Source of the DNA: Diphasiastrum complanatum
Taxonomy: Eukaryota; Streptophyta; Lycopodiopsida; Lycopodiales; Lycopodiaceae
Assembly (NCBI GenBank): GCA_029204225.1
Contig: CM055092.1
Location: forward strand, 39,441,800 to 39,505,799
Length of the DNA stretch: 64,000 nucleotides
Direction: 5' to 3'
Position 1 is the stretch's first letter. The number at the start of each line of letters is the position of its first letter. The notes under the pieces were generated by a model, which was not told the origin of the DNA, did not search any database, and saw only the letters and a program-made list of their open reading frames with translations. A program made the position numbers and the translations under genes. Positions 45,855 to 63,345 of the stretch are shown here, piece after piece.

Positions 45855-46460
45855 TAAAATTAAAGAATCACTTGAATAAGCTCTCTTTCCTTAATGCTTT
45901 CATCAATGCAAGCCACCTCGTCATTCAATGCTTTCATTTTCGAAACAAAAGTACTTGGACTTTCTTCATTATTTTGCAAACAAGAAAAGATTTGCCTTCT
46001 TAGAGTCAACACTCTAAAAGTAGACTTGGATTCATAAAGCTTCTTCAATGAATTCCAAGCTTCCAAAGATGATGTGCACTTACCAGCTTCCTTGAGAAGC
46101 TCATTGGTAACATTCATCTTTATCATGTGTAGAGCCTTCTTGGCCCTCTTGTCATACCTCACTTGATCTTGGTGTGTTGCTGGTCTCTCCTCCAAACCTA
46201 CAACAATATCCAAAGTATCATTCATCTCAAGAAGTGACTCCATCCTCACATTCCACAATGAATAGTTACTTGAGGTAAGCCTATCATTGGCTTCCAACAT
46301 GACTCCAATTGGGTTTGAACACCAACAAATGCTTTTAAAAGAAATCACCAAGATTTGAAACTATCTCAACAATTCTCTTCTAGCACTTATACCAAGAAAA
46401 TCAACACATAGAATCATGGAATCTTGATCAACCTATGATCTATCCTCAATCTAATTTCAC
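45855..46460 (-). pseudogene. Truncated copia gag and leader
   Basis: Gag starts at 46300 (MLEANDRLTSSNYSLWNVRM) and continues through QVRYDKRAKKALHMIKMNVT and LKKLYESKSTFRVLTLRRQI to ERELIQVIL, where homology stops at 45860. The leader (46301-46460) matches that at 56.5 kb. Same family as 56685-57420. Confidence 0.85.
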
Positions 46461-46489
46461 TGGGTTCTCATGCATCCCTCCTCAAGAGG

Positions 46490-47730
46490 TGTTTTTGGTA
46501 AAAAGAGAAAATCAAATATGGATTATAGGAATTTTTGGAAAGGTAGAATTTTAGACTTCAAAGTTTCACCCGGTGGTCGATCCATTTCAGAGGTCTTGAT
46601 TCAACATGTCTACATGCATAAGGAAATTAGAGTGCAAGGCGTAAGTTCAAATGACAGACTCAAATGCATTTGTAAGTTTTGGAGAATTTTTTGCTTTGAG
46701 CTTTGCATTAATCATTTAGACGTGTATCTGAGTATTTAAATGACATATAGTTTTATGGATTTGTGCAAATTTGTATCCATCAAGCATAATCGAATGGCAA
46801 TCTATACAATCCGTTGTCGGCATCATGGATGTTATTCATTCTTATATTGGTCTTCTGCAATACAAGAACCGCTCCACGAGATCACTTTTGGATTCTTGTA
46901 TTTTCTTCTATGATTCATTTTACACACCATCCAGTTTAGGTGAAAAATTAGAGGCGATATCATTACCCTCTTTCTCAAGCGAAAAATGGATTCCTCCAGA
47001 TTCCACCATAGCAGAGAGCTTTCGATCAAGTTTTTTTATGGACATTCAAAACTGTATAAAATGTAGCACAGGTTCAAAAAACAATAGATTGCCTGGGTTT
47101 TGCCTATTGCAATTTTTGTTGATTTTTTTGTTGAATGTAATATTTGTAAAATAGTGACAATGTTTATTTGTAGTGATTTAACAAACTATATGTTATCAAG
47201 CCTCCTTGATGATCATTGGGATAAAAAGAGTAATGGCAATATTGAGTGCATAGTTAATAGATCGTCACTGAAATTTAGATATCTTATAGAAAAACAAGTG
47301 CTTTCTTTAACATTTTATTATAGAAGATGGTCCAAAGTTGGCACCGGATGGAAAGCATTGGATCAGGATTTTACAGTGAATCATCAAGATCAAATAGAAA
47401 TTCAAGTGATGAAAAATAATTCTACTCTTACAACAATTGAGGTGGAAGAAGATTGGACACTCGATCACATTCGATCAGAGCTTACACAACACTTCTATTT
47501 TCGAGTCAATGAGAGATTGGTAGGTGTATGTGTATTTATTCCTATACACATTTGAAATGACTTTCAATAATTTTATTTAAACATGTTTCAATGTTTTCGG
47601 TATTGCAATATTTCATTTGACATAATCTCAATGTTGATATTGTTTAACAAGTTTCTTTGATGTACAGGTAAGAACAAGACAAGAAAGTCACACAGAGTGC
47701 AAGGACTTAAATAGAAGCGTATAAATTGTT
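46490..47730 (+). pseudogene. Gene a, copy 1: unknown protein family, multi-exon
   Basis: I do not recognise the family. Coding segments are 46500-46640 (SISEVLIQHVYMHKEIRVQG, donor GTAAGT at 46641), about 46783-47090 (SVVGIMDVIHSYIGLLQYKN, DSCIFFYDSFYTP) and about 47130-47520 (LSSLLDDHWDKKSNGNIEC, RYLIEKQVLSLTFYYRRW, WKALDQDF, then IEVEEDWTLDHIRSELTQHF with donor GTAGGT). A short last exon may start near 47669. All blocks align with 57731-58802. The acceptor before 46770 reads GCAA where the other copy has GCAG, and a frameshift near 47090 is needed. It faces gene b with about 240 bp between them. Confidence 0.6.
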
Positions 47731-47967: not shown

Positions 47968-49620
47968 TTACATTTCAATCAAAGGTGCTTGAGGCATATC
48001 CTCGAGCACTATAACCTCATCCATGGATCCCCTAGCAGGTTCATTCGTGGCACCTTCATGCTTGTAGGGCCTTGCACATGATAGCACAATTTCCAACATT
48101 TCATGCCGATACTGATGAATCACATTTGTTGATACCTCAGGACATTGGAACTGCAAAAAAAATTATCGAGTGTATGTATGTATTAGCCAATGTTTTAAAA
48201 TATATAAACTCACAAAGTTAACAATATACCATCAGGATATTGGAACATTGAAAAAAATACCTCACGCATACTAGCATCTGGAGGTTGCACCATATACCAA
48301 TCCAAGAACGATTTAAATTCCAGGTGAATACCATCCGCAGCTGAAAGCATCGTTTTGTTGCGAAGTCTGAGAAATCGCAGTGAAAAATTGTTAAATTATA
48401 ATTTAATATAATTCTAAACTACATGCCATCATGCAAATAAAATACGTAAAAAAATTCCTTTTACCTTTGCATCAACAACCTCTATGTCGATATTTACAAC
48501 CAACCCATCCGGCCTGGACAATAGCTCCACCATCCTTTTGTACATGGATTTAATCATGGAATGGGTGGCATGCAAAAAATTCATTGTCATGCACACAAGT
48601 GTGCAGCTTCCAGTCGAATCCACTTTCATGGATATGACGTGCACACTCCAATGTTTGCTGCTAGAAAGAGACAAGCAATGAATTACTAGAATCTATAAGA
48701 GTTTCCAAAAGAAAAATCTTATAGAAAATAGATATTGCAAGAAGAAACTATCTTACTTTGAATAGTATGGAATGATGAACATTGATGCCTCTTTGCTGGT
48801 GTGCTTGAAGAGTTTTCTGGCTTTTCTCTCTTTATTCAACAGATGCCCAAAAAATGGAGATACAACAAAAATCTCCTTTGTGACTGTATATGTATATTTA
48901 TGTACATAGTATGCACAAGCAAATTCAACTACTGTGTCTGAGATATATGAGGTCTTCTCTTTTAGCTCCCTACAATGCAGGTCTTTGATATGCATTGCAA
49001 AATTAATATCGTCTATACAAAACATAAACTCCCCTCCGAGATCATCTATTTTCTTGGCTATATACAGGTCAAAATCAATGTACCTCTCAGAATCAAAAAA
49101 TGTGTCTTCAGGTTCATTCGGAAGTCTGATGTGCAACTCTTTATCAGTTGCATCAACATCAGAAACAATCATGTCTACCACTGTATTTAGGTCATCATCA
49201 TGTATAGAAGGAGAATCGTGCAGTTGAAGATCAGGGGTCACGGGAGGACTCTCAACCAGTGGAATTGCGGATGTACTAGCCAGATCTTTTCTAATGGGAG
49301 GAGGTGAGGGTGAAGAGCTGGGAGACCTGGGCTTGGGTTGCGAACGCTTGGGCTGTGCTTGCTTTCTCTTTTTGTGGGGTGGGACATGCCCCCTTCAAGA
49401 GGAACTTGCCTCTGTGTGAATCCAAACTTAAAAATACTATCACAGGTGTTTCGAAGCCTCATGACAAGAAGCATGTCCTTGGGCATTAGTGTCACCCTCT
49501 TGCCATGAATGGAGCACAACATCGAACTCTCAAACAATTTTGTCTGGAAATCCTCGTATGCAGTATGGAGGGCCTCCAATGCAGTGATATTCGACGTCAT
49601 TGCATAGGGGAAGTGGGTGG
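47968..49620 (-). pseudogene. Gene b, copy 1: histone H3-like fold plus Ulp1-like (C48) protease
   Basis: 49610-49430 encodes a histone H3 fold: ITALEALHTAYEDF, LFESSMLCSIHGKRVTLMPK, then DMLLVMRLRN. By eye 23 of 44 aligned positions equal canonical H3 (helix 1 to the C-terminal helix), including the L-C pair. The H3 N-terminal tail is absent. After a one-base frameshift in a G5 run (about 49388-49392), a basic Ser/Pro linker follows (PHKKRKQAQPKRSQPKPRS), then 49240-48757 and, across an intron (48756-48658), 48657-48465, which resemble Ulp1/SENP: ELKEKTSYISDTVVEFA, IFVVSPFFGHLL and catalytic-type HWSVHVIS. The next exon (48367-48261) holds QQNDAFSCGWY, matching the Q-x5-C-G active site, but in a shifted frame. 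The last exon is 48150-47968. Ulp1 proteins cleave SUMO-like modifiers; the Asp of the triad is not evident. Confidence 0.72.
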
Positions 49621-50300
49621 TCATGTGGAACCACAAGTCTGTATACGCATGTGTGAAACTGCACGTCTGGATCAACACGTGTGGGATCCCACGTGGGGAC
49701 ACATGGCCGAATGGATCAGTGACATGTGTTCTTGCACGTATAGGCTTGCACGTGTGGTCACGTGGCCCAATCAGTACCTGACGTGTGGGACCTACACCTC
49801 TGTATCCGCACGTGTGAAACTTGCATGTGTGTCCACATGGTCCAACGGTTTAGTGACGTGTGTTTTGGCACGTGTGATCTTGCACGTGTGGGCATGTGGG
49901 CGAATGGCAGATTGACGCGTATTGTAGCATGTGTGGTCTCGCACGTGTGGACGGTTGTACTACCCGCCATAGATCTGATCCGCTGTTGGATCGACGAGTG
50001 TACGGCTTGGATTTTCTTGGTTTTAGCTATATAAATGTTGTTTGATCAGTTAAAACATTTCGCTAAGTTTTGGATTTTCACTCCCTGTATCTCGCAGTGT
50101 GTGAACAGTTCTATTTCTTTGCAATATTGCTACCACGTGAGAATCTTTTAGAGATTCTAGACGATCTAAGATCCCTCGCGTCGTTCCGATATCAGGTCAT
50201 TCGCCAATATTGCCATCACGCGAGGAAGTCCTGATTGTTTTCTGACTCCCTGCCACCCCGTGTTGTAGCGATAGTCGGCCATATTTGTCATACTTTCGAG
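49621..50300. promoter_or_regulatory. Divergent b/c intergenic region with G-box tandem array
   Basis: Four degenerate units of 57-75 bp (about 49700, 49759, 49834 and 49894 to 49950) repeat the pattern CACATGGCC-AAT-...-TGACGTGTG-...-TTGCACGTGTGG. Perfect CACGTG cores lie at 49676, 49690, 49749, 49759, 49809, 49869, 49883 and 49942, eight in 272 bp. CTATATAAATG at 50026 is a TATA candidate for gene c. Confidence 0.7.
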
Positions 50301-51686
50301 ATGGCCGCGTCATCCTCTAATACTTTTGATTTTGCTTTGCACGCCTTCCTCGTTGAATCCGGTGTTGGTAACTACATAGGTCGCTATAAGACGTATTTCA
50401 ATATGTCTCAACATAAATCATATTTTTCAGTGTTGTATAAGGAGTATTATGATAGTCTGAATCAGTCTATGTTTACCATGGATAATCTACAATTCATCCA
50501 TTTCCATGACCTAGTACTTGCCTTACCATCTTTAAAACAAAGCCACAACTGACAATTCACGAAAATCGTGAGTGATTTTAAACGTGTGGTCCATTGTGAC
50601 CAGCACAATCGATCATGTCGTTTCTTGCAGGAAGGCATGGGCTTTGTGTTTTATCTTTCTGCTCTTATTCCTGATGAGGCAAGAACTTCGAGGCTTAGCA
50701 TTGAGGGTGCCTCATCATCAACTGATTCAGTGATATTAGAGTCGGCTATTGTTGATGACGCCTTGGGTGCTGACGAGGAGGCAAGATTGGCTTCAATGTA
50801 CGACCCAGCTAAGTCTCGTGCATTGTCCATTTCTTCCTTATCTGACGTGAATTCATATGACAAAACTAAAACTCTCCTCGATTTGCCAGTGTATTACATG
50901 AATAGTGTCGCATACCTCTCACTGAATGATGTTGGAGATGTTCTTGATTTGAGGGAGGACGAAATATTATCAATTTTGTCTAATTTCATCAAAGAATTCG
51001 AGGACTTCATAGATCTCGACGGTGATTCTATGCGCTTCTATTGATTACAAAGACAGAGATGAATGGATGGATGGGATTGAAGCACTTTAGTCAATCATGT
51101 CTGAAAGCAGGGCATACCAAGCAAATTTGCCCGGTGAGGAGGAATTTCTGAAAATCCGCAGCAGATATGTGTCACAGTCTTCGGAAACTAGTCCATCCAG
51201 TGCTTCGACGACCATTGTTGCTGGTCATGATCTACATACTGCTGCACTTATTGAAGCTGATGAGCGTGATTTGGTAAGTAAATCTGGTTTTATCTTTATG
51301 AGATTTTTATTCAAATATAGTCATTTTGTTTTACAAGACATGTGACCTTTGCTCGTATTTTACAGGCTACTATTGAGGTGGATGCCTTTGCAACAAGGCA
51401 TGGATATTTGAGGGAAGGCCAGGGATCACGACAAAGGGATTCATCCCTGTCCAATTATTTGAAGTGCTTTGTAAATAAAGAGATTTGCATTCATCATAGC
51501 AAATTTTCTTCAAATGTTGCAACAATAATAATGGCAATTAAAGCATTATCCTATTTCTCGAACGGGCATAAATACCCTCCGAATACATATAAAATTATTT
51601 TTGTGAAGAGAGACATTGCCATAAAAGTATTTGGCTATGTAGCTGAGGAAGTTCCAAAAAGGTCTTTGACCACACAGCAAAGCTGA
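50301..51686 (+). pseudogene. Gene c: unknown protein, one clear intron
   Basis: No family recognised. The frame starts MAASSSNTFDFALHAFLVE and runs to 51044 with one in-frame TGA at 50550. It then shifts frame near 51042 (YKDRDEWMDGIEAL), has a TAG near 51088 and continues through SESRAYQANLPGEEEFLKI. A GTAAGT...TTTTACAG intron (51276-51365) joins ADERDL to ATIEVDAFATRHGYL in phase 0. The C-terminus includes SLSNYLKCFVNKEICIHH and KIIFVKRDIAIKVFGYV and ends at 51686. The acidic, Ser-rich middle is low complexity. It is transcribed away from gene b across the G-box array. I infer it belongs to the same element as a, b and d from proximity only. Confidence 0.5.
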
Positions 51687-51689
51687 TCA

Positions 51690-52240
51690 TTAAAGACAAA
51701 GAGAAACAATGATTTTGCCTTGCATTGTACTACACATGATGCGATATAATACATATACTTTTTTTGTCTGATATCATGAAATTTACTATGGGTTGAGTCT
51801 TGCATCAATATTATTTTCGTCTATAAATTTGCACGCCTTTCTGAATTTCTGATAATTTGTTGATCTAGTGATTCCTTGTGATAACCAAATACTCTCACTG
51901 TCGTAAGCTTTTGCAAAAAATGATGCATGATGTCGTAAAATGTGCTGCAATATTAGAGATACAAATATTGTCATATTAATCATTTTACCTTTAGCATATG
52001 TGCAATGAGATTAAAAATCGAAGAGTTAATTACATTAAAAAGAGATTTACCATATAATGTGTAATATGATCTTCACCCCAGGCATCTTTAACTGCATCCA
52101 CAAACTCAATTGTTGATTTCTCAATTAGTAGGACATCAATATCAGATAGTTTATCTCTTCTGAGCAATTTGACCATGTTGTCAAGCTTTGTCCAGACTTC
52201 AACTTTTTAATCCTCGTTGTTCCTTTTTCTTCAAAATCCT
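51690..52240. other. Interval with possible 3' end of gene d
   Basis: AT-rich with no firm homology. Short minus-strand frames could be terminal exons of gene d, but splice sites are not clear. Confidence 0.35.
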
Positions 52241-52259
52241 TTGTGGCATTGAGTACATC

Positions 52260-53600
52260 TATCCAAATTAAGTACTAGATTTTAGTTGGTTTTCCAGAAT
52301 GATTTGATAAGAAACGACGAGCTTTGGATCCTCCTATACTTGATTTGCATGGGATGTTTCCTGTTTTTCCTGAAAGCTTCTCGTCCTTTTGTATTTTAAC
52401 GTGTCCTTTATGAAGTCCCGCTTTTGATAAAACTTCTTCCAATTGAGCTATTGCCTTTTTGGCTAATGACTCTGGCTTAGTATTCCAAGCAAACCAAATA
52501 TGAAGTTATATCAATTTTTTGATAATTCTAACCTCTCCATGTAGTGTACAAATGTGAACATTTTTAAGCAGAATCGGTAATACTGGTTTCCAAGTCGGAT
52601 CTTCTATATCCCTTGAAACTCTCGTGCTCTTCGACATGTCATGTGTAGTTTTCATGCAATAGAGGCATGGATGTTTTGAATTTGCTCCATGTGAGACATT
52701 TAACATGCACTTCAACAACTTCAGGTCTCCGGCCAAATGCCATTCCACTTTAAAATCACCTATTCCAGGAACATTGAGTGGTGTGTCGCTCATATGATTC
52801 TTAATTATCTCTAAATATTCTGTTTTACTAGAAATCCAAAATAGAATGTCATGATCTTCTTTTAAAACCTATTTGAAACACAAAATCATGAACGATTTTA
52901 GGAGAATTGAACTCAGACCTATAATAACATAACAATATTAGTTTAAAACACAAAACCATTAATTCTTGAAATGAATTAGCTGCTAGTACTCAATAGAATA
53001 GATTTAAACCTGGAAAGCTGCCAACTACCAAATATTATTTTTGGACTGCACACTGAAATCAAGACTCTCCGAGTTTATCGTATTGCTTAATGCTCCATTC
53101 ATAATTGTAACACCAACCCTTTCCAGCTTTTGTCCCTTTATTACTTCTGATTCATCTAATTTGAGAACTAATATCAATTGTTTAAGACTTTATTTGTGAT
53201 TCCATAAAACTTTATAATAAATCTTAGTAAATGATTCAGATCTACAAACATATTGTTGGTAGAATCATATGACAAAGTGCCATGTTTTGAGTTATAAATT
53301 TCATTTATATGGTAAGGAATACCAATGATGTTTTGCAAATCCATGTTTAACACATCCCTCTCTAATTTGATTTCAAAGGGTCAGGGAATAGGAAATTTTT
53401 TTATATGTACTTGTCCAAATGCCTCTTTGATAATTTTAAACATTGTCTCATATGCATCCCTGCTAATACCAGAATAATCACATGCCCCTTGTATCAATTT
53501 TCGGTCAATGATCTTGCCGACTTCGCCCATAATCATGTCCTTGTCTTTCAGATTTTCATTGGTGACTAAAGCTGATCTGCAAAAGAAAAATAAGATTTAG
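52260..53600 (-). pseudogene. Gene d, transposase-like core
   Basis: Minus-strand segments in order: DMIMGEVGKIIDRKLIQGA to HIKKFPIP (about 53545-53390); FVDLNHLLRFIIKFYG, then LVLKLDESEVIKGQKLERVG (about 53270-53000); IGDFKVEWHLAGDLKLLKCM then NVSHGANSKHPCLYCMK (52793-52640); WKPVLPILLKNVHICTLHGE with RIIKKL (to about 52506), then the Lys-rich KPESLAKKAIAQLEEVLS. A catalytic-looking Asp strand, the GD-x-K-x-L block with a C-x2-C pair, and an H-containing helix resemble RNase-H-fold transposase-like proteins of dispersed eukaryotic elements, though I cannot name the superfamily. Stops and frame changes are present. A fragment recurs at 32863. Confidence 0.5.
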
Positions 53601-53959
53601 AAAAAAAAAAACAATTCACAACCATTGAGTGCTAGATGAAACAAAACACATGAATAGTTTAAAACATAATCTTACTTGAAAGCATATATTCTTTTTTTCC
53701 GTTGACCCCCACTTGTTGAAAGCTCATCAATACTTTTTAAAATAACTCTTTTTCGCTTATTGTTCAGTATTTTCTTCCGTAATGTGTTTACTTCTACATT
53801 TATTTGACAATATGAGGTACGCAATGTTTGTACAATTAGTTTCATATTGTCAGTTTCTTGGTTAGGTTTAATATAATATCTTGCAAACGAGAATTATCTA
53901 TCTTCAAGATTTCATTCTCTTCTTTTGTTTGCAAAAAAATAGTTTCTCTTTTTCGGTAG

Positions 53960-54400
53960 TCAGTAAGCAAACCATTCAACATATTTTCCAAACAATGGAT
54001 TTTTTTTCATTGAATTACTAATGCCATAACTTTTCAATCTTTCACAATAACCCAATAGATCATTGTGTCCTTCACACAAAAACAGTATGAGTTGTGTGAC
54101 CGATCTAAAATTTGGATGTTGCATTGAGCTTGGATCGATTGAATACAAACTTCCATCAACCCATAGATCACAATGTTTCCTATCTTCCGTCCTTTGGTGA
54201 GATGATAAGGTGGATCCTTTCATATTTTTTCTCGACAGTGGAGCATATTCTGTGGGAAGATCAATATGGAAATGATATTTAGACATCTTTTTGAAATGAC
54301 CTTGGCGCTCTTTTTGATCCATCACACTCCATGTTTCTTGCTTGATATGCAAAATCAATGCTTCGTAGTTATGAGCAAAATAAGCAAAATATTTTTTCAA
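53960..54400 (-). pseudogene. Gene d, probable N-terminal exon
   Basis: A 146-codon frame with YFAYFAHNYEALILHIKQE, KKMSKYHFHIDLPTEYAPLS, then HCDLWVDGSLYSIDP and LILFLCEGHNDLLGYCERL. No family recognised. Its position and strand upstream of the transposase-like core suggest it is the start of the same gene. A copia fragment begins about 320 bp further upstream. Confidence 0.4.
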
Positions 54401-54714
54401 TCGATAAGACTATTTTTCATTGATGTGAACGCTTTGAGTAGATGGAAAGAAAACTTTGATGTGCAATACGATTTGCATTTACATGAGAAGTTATGTTAGT
54501 TAATGGTAGAAAATAGAATCTTAAAGTATGGACCCCAGCGTTGCGGCTACCCAACTTCCAGTTAACTACATACGTTACTAGCGAGGTCAAGTCATCGGAG
54601 TTGTGCGGGAAGACCAAAAACTCGGTCAGAGTTTTAAAATCCGACGATTTTCTCTCTCTTATGTGGCATTTCTTAGACAGCCCTTTTGGGCCTTGGAACT
54701 CCTGTAATGGGCTG

Positions 54715-57730: not shown

Positions 57731-58802
57731 ATGGCGCCATCAAAGAAGTCGTGCTCCTCAATCGATTATGTGCTTCTCTTCAATGGAAAAGATGACAATG
57801 GATTATGGGTGCCAAGAAAATATTCAAAAAAACTCTTGAGTTCTGATGCATTCATCATCAAAAGGAACATTTTGAAAAATCAAAAAGACAAAACTATCAT
57901 TTCGATCTTATTGAAAGGCCAGAGTTTTGGATTTGAGAACATCATTAGGAGGAAAATCTATTTCTGAAATTTTAGTCCAACATTTATATATGCATTCAGA
58001 GATAAATGTGCAAGGATTCAACCAACAAGATCACAAAAAAAAAACAACTGTGAGTATTGATATATTACCATACTTTGATTTTTCTCATTCGTAATCATCT
58101 ATTGTTAAACTTGCCAATATGATCATTTTTCTCTTGCAGATTTATATCCATCCAATATAAATGAATGAGAGCCAAGTGGATCTCTTGCAAGTGTGTTAGA
58201 TGTAGTACACACCGATATTGGATAGTTGCAATATAGAGGTAGAACTACAAAAGATCTTGCTAATTGTGGAATCTTCTTTTATGAAACTATGTAAATTTCT
58301 GATATAAAAGGAGATTTCGGACAAATAATCCCAATTCCATTACCTAGTTTTGGAATTGATGAATGGGTTGCTCCAAATGCTGCAGTTTCATAATCATTTC
58401 ATTGCAAGCCATATAATGATGTGAAAAATTCATTAAAGATAAGCACGTGATCAAAAACAGTCCGATTAAGTTGGTTTATGTCTTTGAATATATTTGTGGA
58501 TTTCTTTTTCAAGTGTCAATGTACACAAAACCCCAATGATGTTTATATGCAAAAATTTATCAGATAGTTTATTATCTGAACTTATGGATGAAGGCTGGGA
58601 CAAAAAATCAGATGGAGATATAGAATGCAAAATTAAAATGTCTTCCATGTGCTTTCATTATCGAATAGAAAAGCAAATGTTGAGCTTATGCTTCCATTAT
58701 CAAAGATGGAAAAATACCAAAAGTCAATGGGTGCCACTCGATCAAGACTTGGAAGCCAGTTTACATTTTGAACAAAAAAATATAGAAATAATATACAATT
58801 AG
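57731..58802 (+). pseudogene. Gene a', copy 2 of the unknown family
   Basis: The first exon (from 57731) reads MAPSKKSCSSIDYVLLFNGK and YSKKLLSSDAFIIKRNIL, then after a frameshift near 57955 SISEILVQHLYMHSEINVQG, with donor GTGAGT near 58051. An acceptor TTGCAG at 58139 leads to SGSLASVLDVVHTDIG, ANCGIFFYET and EWVAPNAA. After a gap come LSELMDEGWDKKSDGDIEC, HYRIEKQMLSLCFHYQRW and WVPLDQDL. The order matches gene a at 46.5-47.5 kb. A minus-strand copia adjoins at 58.8 kb. Confidence 0.6.
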
Positions 58803-62128: not shown

Positions 62129-63345
62129 CTTGAGAAATTTTATGTTTATTTTTCCAATAAAACCCATTGTCGGTATTTCCCAAACGTCTTCATGAAGTAG
62201 AGAATCAAATTCTCTATGTATTCTTGGATGAATATATATTTACATAGAAAATTTACTACTCCTTCTTCATTTATTTTCAGCGAAAGAATGTTCAGGATCC
62301 AGTGCCGACTGCAACAATCAATATGAAATTAGAATCAATTTTAACAAGAGTATTATTATCAAAATAAAAGGCATCAACACCAAAGTAGCAAAACTTACTT
62401 ATTTTCATATGGAATCAAATAGAATTTGGCCAATGGACTTCACTCGATGAAATAAATAGTTTTTTCAAAACTGGCCTCTTTTGCCTTCGTTGTTGACATG
62501 AAAAAAAGACTAACAACAAAAACATCTCCGATGGAATTGAGACTGATATTGTGATGCGAAAAGCTTTGGCTGACTTCAACAATTGTATTTGTAATCTTGG
62601 AAGTCTTATCTTTAAGATCTATACAAAATTTGGGATCTAATTGAAAATTTTTATTTGTATCTGAAGAAAAAAGTCAAAATAGTTGCCGATATCAATGATA
62701 TTGGCTAAATAAGATTCATATTCATTATAATGGTCAGAATCAAAATCTATCCGCCAAGGATCGTATGGGATTCTAACAAAAAGGCTATGTACATAGTTTT
62801 CAACAGATGTGGAGATAATATTTAGAGACTTGTATGTTATTTTGTCAAGCTCCTCTTGGGTTATCTCAACCTTCGGCGAAGAAACCCTTTGAGAAGATTG
62901 ACAAGTAACAGGAGGAGGGGAAGCAGGTTCTAAGTCTGATTTAGAGTTCGAAGACGCTGAATTAGTGGTCAAGACGATACATGGTCGCTTTGCAGAGATG
63001 ACTTTCATAGGAAGGAAAGCAGCAGGCCTACGAGATCTAGATTTTTTAGAGATAGCATGCTTCATCTTCTTGCTTGAGGTAGTTAGCATGTCTGATCTAT
63101 CTAGGGGCAGATCTCTGGAGGTGCTGGAGTTATCCACATAAAGACCTGAATAACGTTGTCTTTTGAGAATTACGAAATCCTTGGACATGATGGTAACATG
63201 CTTAACCATGCATGGCCAGAAGAACAAAATCCTCAAAAAATTGGGACAAATAGTCCTCTGTAGAATCCTGTAAGGCTTGCATGGCTGTAACAACAAAATG
63301 AACATGGAGCCCGAGCGACATGGTGACATTCGTAATAGATCGGTT
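62129..63345 (-). pseudogene. Gene b', copy 2: histone H3-like fold plus Ulp1-like (C48) protease
   Basis: 63300-63160 encodes the H3 fold: HFVVTAMQALQDSTEDYLSQ, FFEDFVLLAMHG, then after a one-base frameshift at 63205 KHVTIMSKDFVILKRQR. A basic Ser-rich linker follows (SSKKMKHAISKKSRSRRPAA). The protease-like part includes FDSDHYNEYESYLANIID, LKDKTSKITNTIVEVSQS, DVFVVSLFF and LIPYEN. It is then spliced (intron 62398-62309) to RHWILNILSLKINEEGVVNF, carrying the catalytic-type His-Trp. The exon ends near 62129; the Cys exon is not identified. Frameshifts at about 62655 and within the last exon and a stop near 62440 show decay. The domain order and intron match copy 1, but the sequences are strongly diverged. 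Confidence 0.68.

Follow-up and report, generated by a model that had tools for sequence, protein, structure and literature searches.

In the genome of Diphasiastrum complanatum, a single gene of a mobile element combines histone H3 with a C48 (Ulp1/SENP)-type protease; the combination is present in many copies and in four diverged families, here called TE1 to TE4. Our starting point was a stretch of 64,000 nucleotides (assembly GCA_029204225.1, contig CM055092.1, positions 39,441,800 to 39,505,799, forward strand; hereafter the window), which holds a decayed copy of this H3-Ulp1 gene. Intact copies encode a complete H3 variant, with tail, αN and helices α1 to α3, followed by a basic linker and a C48/Ulp1-type cysteine-protease domain. 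The explanation we favour, tentatively, is that the gene encodes a chromatin-tethered anti-silencing factor of deSUMOylase type and that it is an accessory gene in a DNA transposon with four genes. An earlier interpretation made from the letters of the window alone (the sequence-only reading) had placed the gene in a mobile element, and rightly so: the gene belongs to a multicopy four-gene transposon with terminal inverted repeats (TIRs), and its joined form is kept in four families.

We searched the whole genome assembly (1.74 Gb; 5,176 contigs) with window segment 48,756-49,385, which gave at least 152 matches at E ≤ 0.001 (150 of 5,089 candidates scored). An H3 match was found at 22 of 24 loci examined, and at 21 of the 24 it shared a strand with the protease and lay immediately upstream of it; no H3 match at E ≤ 1e-3 was seen in L016 or L021, and in L022 the H3 was distant and inverted. 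L007 and L020 are one place, and the pairs L002/L003 and L004/L005 resemble duplications. When the frames of 15 copies were read, most extended upstream into MARTKQTAR..., αN and α1. In five TE1, two TE3 and two TE2 copies an open frame starts at Met, spans H3 and linker without interruption and reaches, or nearly reaches, the end of exon 1. One gene, as first proposed, is a correct description of other copies, in which the parts share one open frame, while the window copy is broken at two points, one near 49,392, between the H3 part and the linker, and the other after the catalytic Cys. A short intron does not explain the first break: the only GT..AG stretch found by eye measures 32 nt, less than a plant intron needs, and the frame is continuous in other copies. 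These frame breaks, and nothing more, could suggest an H3 pseudogene and a Ulp1 pseudogene made neighbours by chance or by an assembly error; the constant order at 21 of 24 loci and in four families rules this out, and its probability is negligible.

Among the matches listed for an H3 query against the genome were 13 canonical H3 sequences (96-98%), ten intron-split H3 exons (78-92%) and others at 49-57%. The diverged families were sampled from the match lists of this query and of a query with centromeric H3 (CENH3). TE2 (L036, L047-L049), TE3 (L043-L046) and TE4 (L050, with stops, and a second copy in the window) all have H3, then a basic linker, then the protease half. A further family, Z (L031-L035, L037, L038, L051), is H3-like, has a long proline-rich N-terminus in its main group and stops after the histone; no Ulp1 part was seen in the stretch read.

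The H3 identity of the window copy is clear from several comparisons. Its segment 49,600-49,430 (minus strand) is identical to host H3 at 23 of 45 residues, covering host residues 88-132 (α2, loop 2 and α3); the 23 identities counted earlier by eye are confirmed, over 45 aligned positions instead of 44. The segment matched Pfam Histone at 1e-12, above cut-off, and 178 PDB sequences at E ≤ 10 (best 1.7e-9), of which the 60 shown were all H3 or H3 variants. The sequence-only reading had seen a core of helices 1, 2 and 3, which is right as to H3 and wrong as to helix 1, since the N-terminal tail, αN and α1 are missing from the window copy. They are present in other genomic copies, and there the match extends over the whole histone fold: the spliced TE2 protein passed the Pfam Histone cut-off at 1.2e-24 (residues 28-123), and the H3 part of TE1, in a hand-made majority version, matched PDB H3 at 2.2e-23 over residues 10-125. 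Like canonical H3 and CENH3 (CENP-A), the element H3 has the full fold and the ARTKQTAR start, and it aligns up to residue 132. It differs in running on into the linker and protease, in the loss of K9 and, in TE1, in a loop 1 that is four residues longer.

The protease is recognised less directly. A KKRK-containing Ser/Pro linker, an exon with HWS and a Q-x5-C-G block in the next exon had been pointed out earlier, and all three are in place, with GT-AG introns of 99, 98 and 110 nt in the window copy. Neither the window protease pieces alone nor the spliced TE1 protein matched a relevant Pfam protease family, so that the Ulp1-like call is upheld through other evidence. The spliced TE2 protein matched Peptidase_C48 at 7.7e-8 (32.9 bits against a cut-off of 20.7); the proteases of TE1 and TE2 share 28% identity over the domain and have intron positions in common; and in a search of PDB with a three-sequence protease profile the eight best of ten matches were Ulp1/SENP proteases, headed by Ulp1 (E = 0.0013), a fungal Ulp1-like protease, SENP2 and SENP8, with sperm lysin (0.74) and SENP7 (1.1) in the same listing at noise level. 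We assign the domain to C48 because of the TE2 match, the shared introns and this profile taken together. The element protease has the HW and Q-x5-CG blocks of the Ulp1/SENP enzymes and differs from them in an Asn at the position of the catalytic Asp and in the H3 at its N-terminus. We had looked both for a lack of Histone or C48 matches and for copies showing the two domains to be always separate; Pfam matches to both families and joined copies were obtained.

Purifying selection acts on the H3 core. By the Nei-Gojobori method, the ratio of nonsynonymous to synonymous substitution (dN/dS) in four within-family pairs was 0.19, 0.14, 0.13 and 0.16 for the H3 core, 0.28, 0.22, 0.36 and 0.61 for the N-terminal half of the protease, 0.31, 0.67, 0.30 and 0.57 for the linker, and 0.43, 2.46, 0.42 and 0.40 for the tail, these last values being based on about 30-36 codons. 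Between families dS was saturated, and dN of the H3 core was lower than that of the linker and protease in 6/6 pairs. Most gene captures by transposons yield functionless host fragments, and the many broken copies, the window's included, would suit such a passenger; the core dN/dS and the survival of the joined gene in four diverged families already disfavour this, and we consider it very unlikely.

The element that carries the gene has the inverted repeats and the multiple dispersed copies of a TIR DNA transposon. Several copies have CATTAGAGGAGTT / AACTCCTCTAATG ends. Both ends are present in L015 and L020, the latter copy being 9,659 bp long, with imperfect terminal inverted repeats and a CCAAAAGGGC block further inward. 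In L020 the genes are T, B, H3-Ulp1 and D, with B and D on the strand opposite to the other two. Homologues of T and B adjoin a TE3 copy, in rearranged order, and homologues of D adjoin TE4 and the second window copy, which ties the families to one element lineage; the stretch upstream of a TE2 copy had no T, B or D homologue. Between B and H3-Ulp1 lies a non-coding stretch with 18 matches to a CACACGTG-like motif (at most 1 mismatch) at 49,648-50,141. This is also where 10 of the 11 CACGTG sites of L020 fall, and the 1.2 kb upstream in eight other copies holds 11, 14, 7, 2, 0, 7, 9 and 0 sites.

The histone tail suggests what such a protein could do. In residue counts that exclude unaligned rows and include duplicates, K4 of the TE1 tail was Lys in 22/23 aligned rows, and the K9 position was Leu in 22, Met in one and Val in one of 24, with Lys in none; it was Asp in TE2 (4/4) and Leu, Leu and Thr in TE3/TE4. 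With K9 lost and K4 kept, nucleosomes containing this H3 would offer no K9 for the silencing mark. We envisage, from sequence comparison, an H3 part that would dock on, or enter, nucleosomes, a basic linker that may aid nuclear and DNA retention, and a protease part that would trim SUMO, or a related modifier, off silencing factors on element copies. The combined effect would be an anti-silencing device comparable to the VANC/KIU genes that VANDAL transposons carry.

The active site agrees with this proposal in part. Among aligned rows the catalytic His is invariant (22/22 TE1, 4/4 TE2, 4/4 TE3; two TE1 exon-2 rows with split alignments, L011 with Asn and L017 with His at this position, were excluded), as is the oxyanion Gln (19/19, 4/4 and 4/4). 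Several observations weigh against an anti-silencing deSUMOylase encoded by a DNA transposon. In place of the His-Asp-Cys triad with oxyanion Gln that marks C48 enzymes, the element has a His-Asn-Cys variant, with Asn at the Asp position in 23/24 TE1, 4/4 TE2 and 4/4 TE3 rows (31/32), so that protease activity is not to be taken for granted, and the catalytic Cys is kept in 14/20, 2/4 and 3/4 rows, respectively. The window copy, without α1, could form no histone fold by itself. No target-site duplication was visible at L015 or L020, the two copies with both ends. Gene T gave no Pfam or PDB match and no recognised transposase domain, and is called a transposase by its context only. Lastly, the whole window has 88 CACACGTG matches (at most one mismatch) against 23.6 expected, and clusters elsewhere in it show that the motif also occurs outside the element.

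Some of these data would also fit a chromatin decoy or SUMO reader, a pseudo-enzyme whose protease part binds SUMO while its H3 part competes for host readers and chaperones. Asn replaces the catalytic Asp in TE1 and in the distant TE2 alike, the protease half is less constrained than the H3 core, and an H3 that keeps K4 and lacks K9 would be a competitor of host H3. However, His and Gln are kept in every aligned row and Cys in most aligned TE1 rows, and Asn can be the third catalytic residue, as in papain-type enzymes. We regard a decoy as rather unlikely.

Where the H3 came from was approached with a tree of 29 rows, for which the CENH3 and human reference sequences were entered by hand. TE1-TE4 form one clade (support 96/88), consistent with a single H3-protease fusion before the TE families split, and family Z joins this clade (88/85). 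The best tree puts plant CENH3 next to TE1-TE4 and Z, with weak support (67/73), and the element sequences have CENH3-like residues (LLIP, a longer loop 1 with RW, EDF, RVTLM) when set against these hand-entered references. A centromere-directed factor, with an H3 part descended from CENH3 that brings the protein or the element to centromeres, would account for this placement, for the slight clustering of the listed copies (66 pairs less than 5 Mb apart, where uniform placement gives a mean of 43 and a largest value of 67 in 2000 simulations; 23/152 matches, on small unplaced contigs or not listed, were left out) and for the five places on C23, all within 0.6 Mb. Yet grouping with canonical H3 without CENH3 was not rejected (approximately unbiased test, p-AU 0.068), and the 129 placed copies are spread along the arms of all of C1-C23 and do not form one block per chromosome. 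A host CENH3 was not identified with a 93-residue query (150 candidates scored, filled by H3 and element copies). Centromere targeting seems unlikely to us. A fuller version of the anti-silencing explanation, in which the lineage captured a possibly centromeric H3, joined it in a single event to a SUMO protease ahead of the four-family split and kept it under selection, so that silencing-resistant nucleosomes would carry the deSUMOylase onto element copies, is conceivable, though doubtful.

Outside this genome, a TE1 query against public proteins gave one match, which was not significant (E = 0.35), and a TE2 query gave 14, of which only P0005 has both H3 and C48; no plant fusion was among the public-protein matches listed, which does not show absence. 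With P0005 as query, six environmental proteins with both domains were found among the best 120 of 4,894 (P0005, P0016, P0017, P0021, P0023 and P0037); the Pfam domains of P0005 were scanned here, and the labels of the other five are the database's own. They share with the transposon gene the order H3, linker (basic in several), C48 protease, and differ in a near-canonical H3, whose start is missing in P0017, and in an intact His-Asp-Gln-Cys set. The predicted model of P0021 matched SENP1/SENP2 (best E 4.9e-14), at a mean predicted local distance difference test (pLDDT) score of 61.4 with the histone part mostly below 55. The environmental H3 parts fall with canonical H3, and a single clade with the transposon H3s was nearly but not formally rejected (p-AU 0.055); these fusions are apparently a separate lineage. 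No relative turned up in two scans of viral_contigs, and we dropped a viral origin for them.

Table 1. Features of the two H3-Ulp1 copies and the surrounding element in the window.
Feature	Position	Strand	Description	Basis
H3-Ulp1 gene, first copy, whole	47,968-49,600	-	decayed member of multicopy four-gene DNA transposon	
H3 part	49,394-49,600	-	ATG at 49,600; α2-L2-α3 and short C-terminal extension; 69 codons	
Linker (KKRK/Ser-Pro) and protease N-terminal half, rest of exon 1	48,757-49,391	-	frame differs from H3 part	
Exon 2	48,465-48,657	-	catalytic-His block KHWS; Asn at Asp position (MNF)	splice sites and aligned rows
Exon 3	48,261-48,366	-	Q-x5-C-G (QQNDAFSCGW); frame break past catalytic Cys	splice sites
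Exon 4	47,968-48,150	-	C-terminal extension and stop codon	conserved in other copies
Non-coding stretch between B and H3-Ulp1	49,600-50,150	.	part of element; rich in CACACGTG-like motifs	
Gene B	50,235-51,686	+	divergent from H3-Ulp1	conserved in TE1 copies and beside TE3 copy
Gene T, putative transposase	51,786-54,409	-	in pieces	position and element context
Left terminal repeat	54,680-54,709	-	CATTACAGGAGTTCC...CCAAAAGGGC	
Gene D	46,455-47,555	+	convergent with H3-Ulp1; truncated	conservation at other copies
H3-Ulp1 gene, second copy (TE4)	62,200-63,291	-	ruined; related copy L050	tblastn and translation
Second copy, α2	63,205-63,291	-	H3 piece	
Second copy, α3	63,153-63,203	-	H3 piece	
Second copy, basic linker and protease N-terminal half	to 62,440	-		
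Second copy, RHW exon	62,200-62,316	-		
Gene D remnant of second copy	57,915-58,799	+	four blocks, 33-59% identity; convergent layout as in first copy	tblastn

The first element of the window has its left end at 54,709 and has lost its right end at about 46,456-46,500. It is nested in a Copia-like element, and a related Copia-like copy at 29 kb gives uninterrupted sequence up to the transposon's left end; the Copia-like stretches lie at 29.2-30.0, 46.2-46.5 and 54.7-55.0 kb. Gene B matched no Pfam family above cut-off. Gene D is 49% conserved between families; a Rec114-like identity was rejected, the Pfam match (E = 0.25) being below cut-off and not reproduced with other copies. The last block of gene D looks faintly ubiquitin-like, with one polyubiquitin match at E = 0.17; a four-sequence profile found no match to such a domain, and the predicted model is of low confidence (mean pLDDT 48). 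Just upstream of the H3 of the second copy, at 63,590-63,380 (minus strand), the fragment LVIDGMDKKKTMLPH resembles a transposase-type domain, DUF7869. Near a TE3 copy, L052 has helicase-like open frames (about 230-1,780, reverse complement; GPSGTGKT) reminiscent of a Helitron.

Accessory genes with Ulp1 domains are known from other plant DNA transposons. The extract of PMC13317346 describes KIU/VANC of the Arabidopsis VANDAL elements, which are non-TIR Mutator-like elements (MULEs), and Ulp1-carrying MULEs in melon, rice and grapevine; according to the extract of PMC5735166, VANC proteins target short motifs that are repeated in tandem in non-coding sequence of the element. Compared by description, the present gene is likewise an accessory gene with a Ulp1 domain in a plant DNA transposon, and a motif array likewise lies in non-coding sequence, here between B and H3-Ulp1. 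In contrast to VANDAL, the present element has TIRs, and a full H3 is fused to its Ulp1 domain; the extracts name no histone part, and the word histone does not occur in PMC13317346. We found no report of a histone-Ulp1 or a transposon-histone link in the open-licence PMC papers searched.

If our interpretation is true, this would be a mobile element with a histone variant of its own. That other families in this genome retain the joined gene suggests an action on host chromatin by way of the transposon's own histone. Some VANC genes carry a Ulp1 domain whose role is unknown, as stated in the same extract (PMC13317346), and a Ulp1 domain tied to the element's own histone points to chromatin as the place where it would act. 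Histone-guided removal of SUMO would then offer a testable route to anti-silencing.
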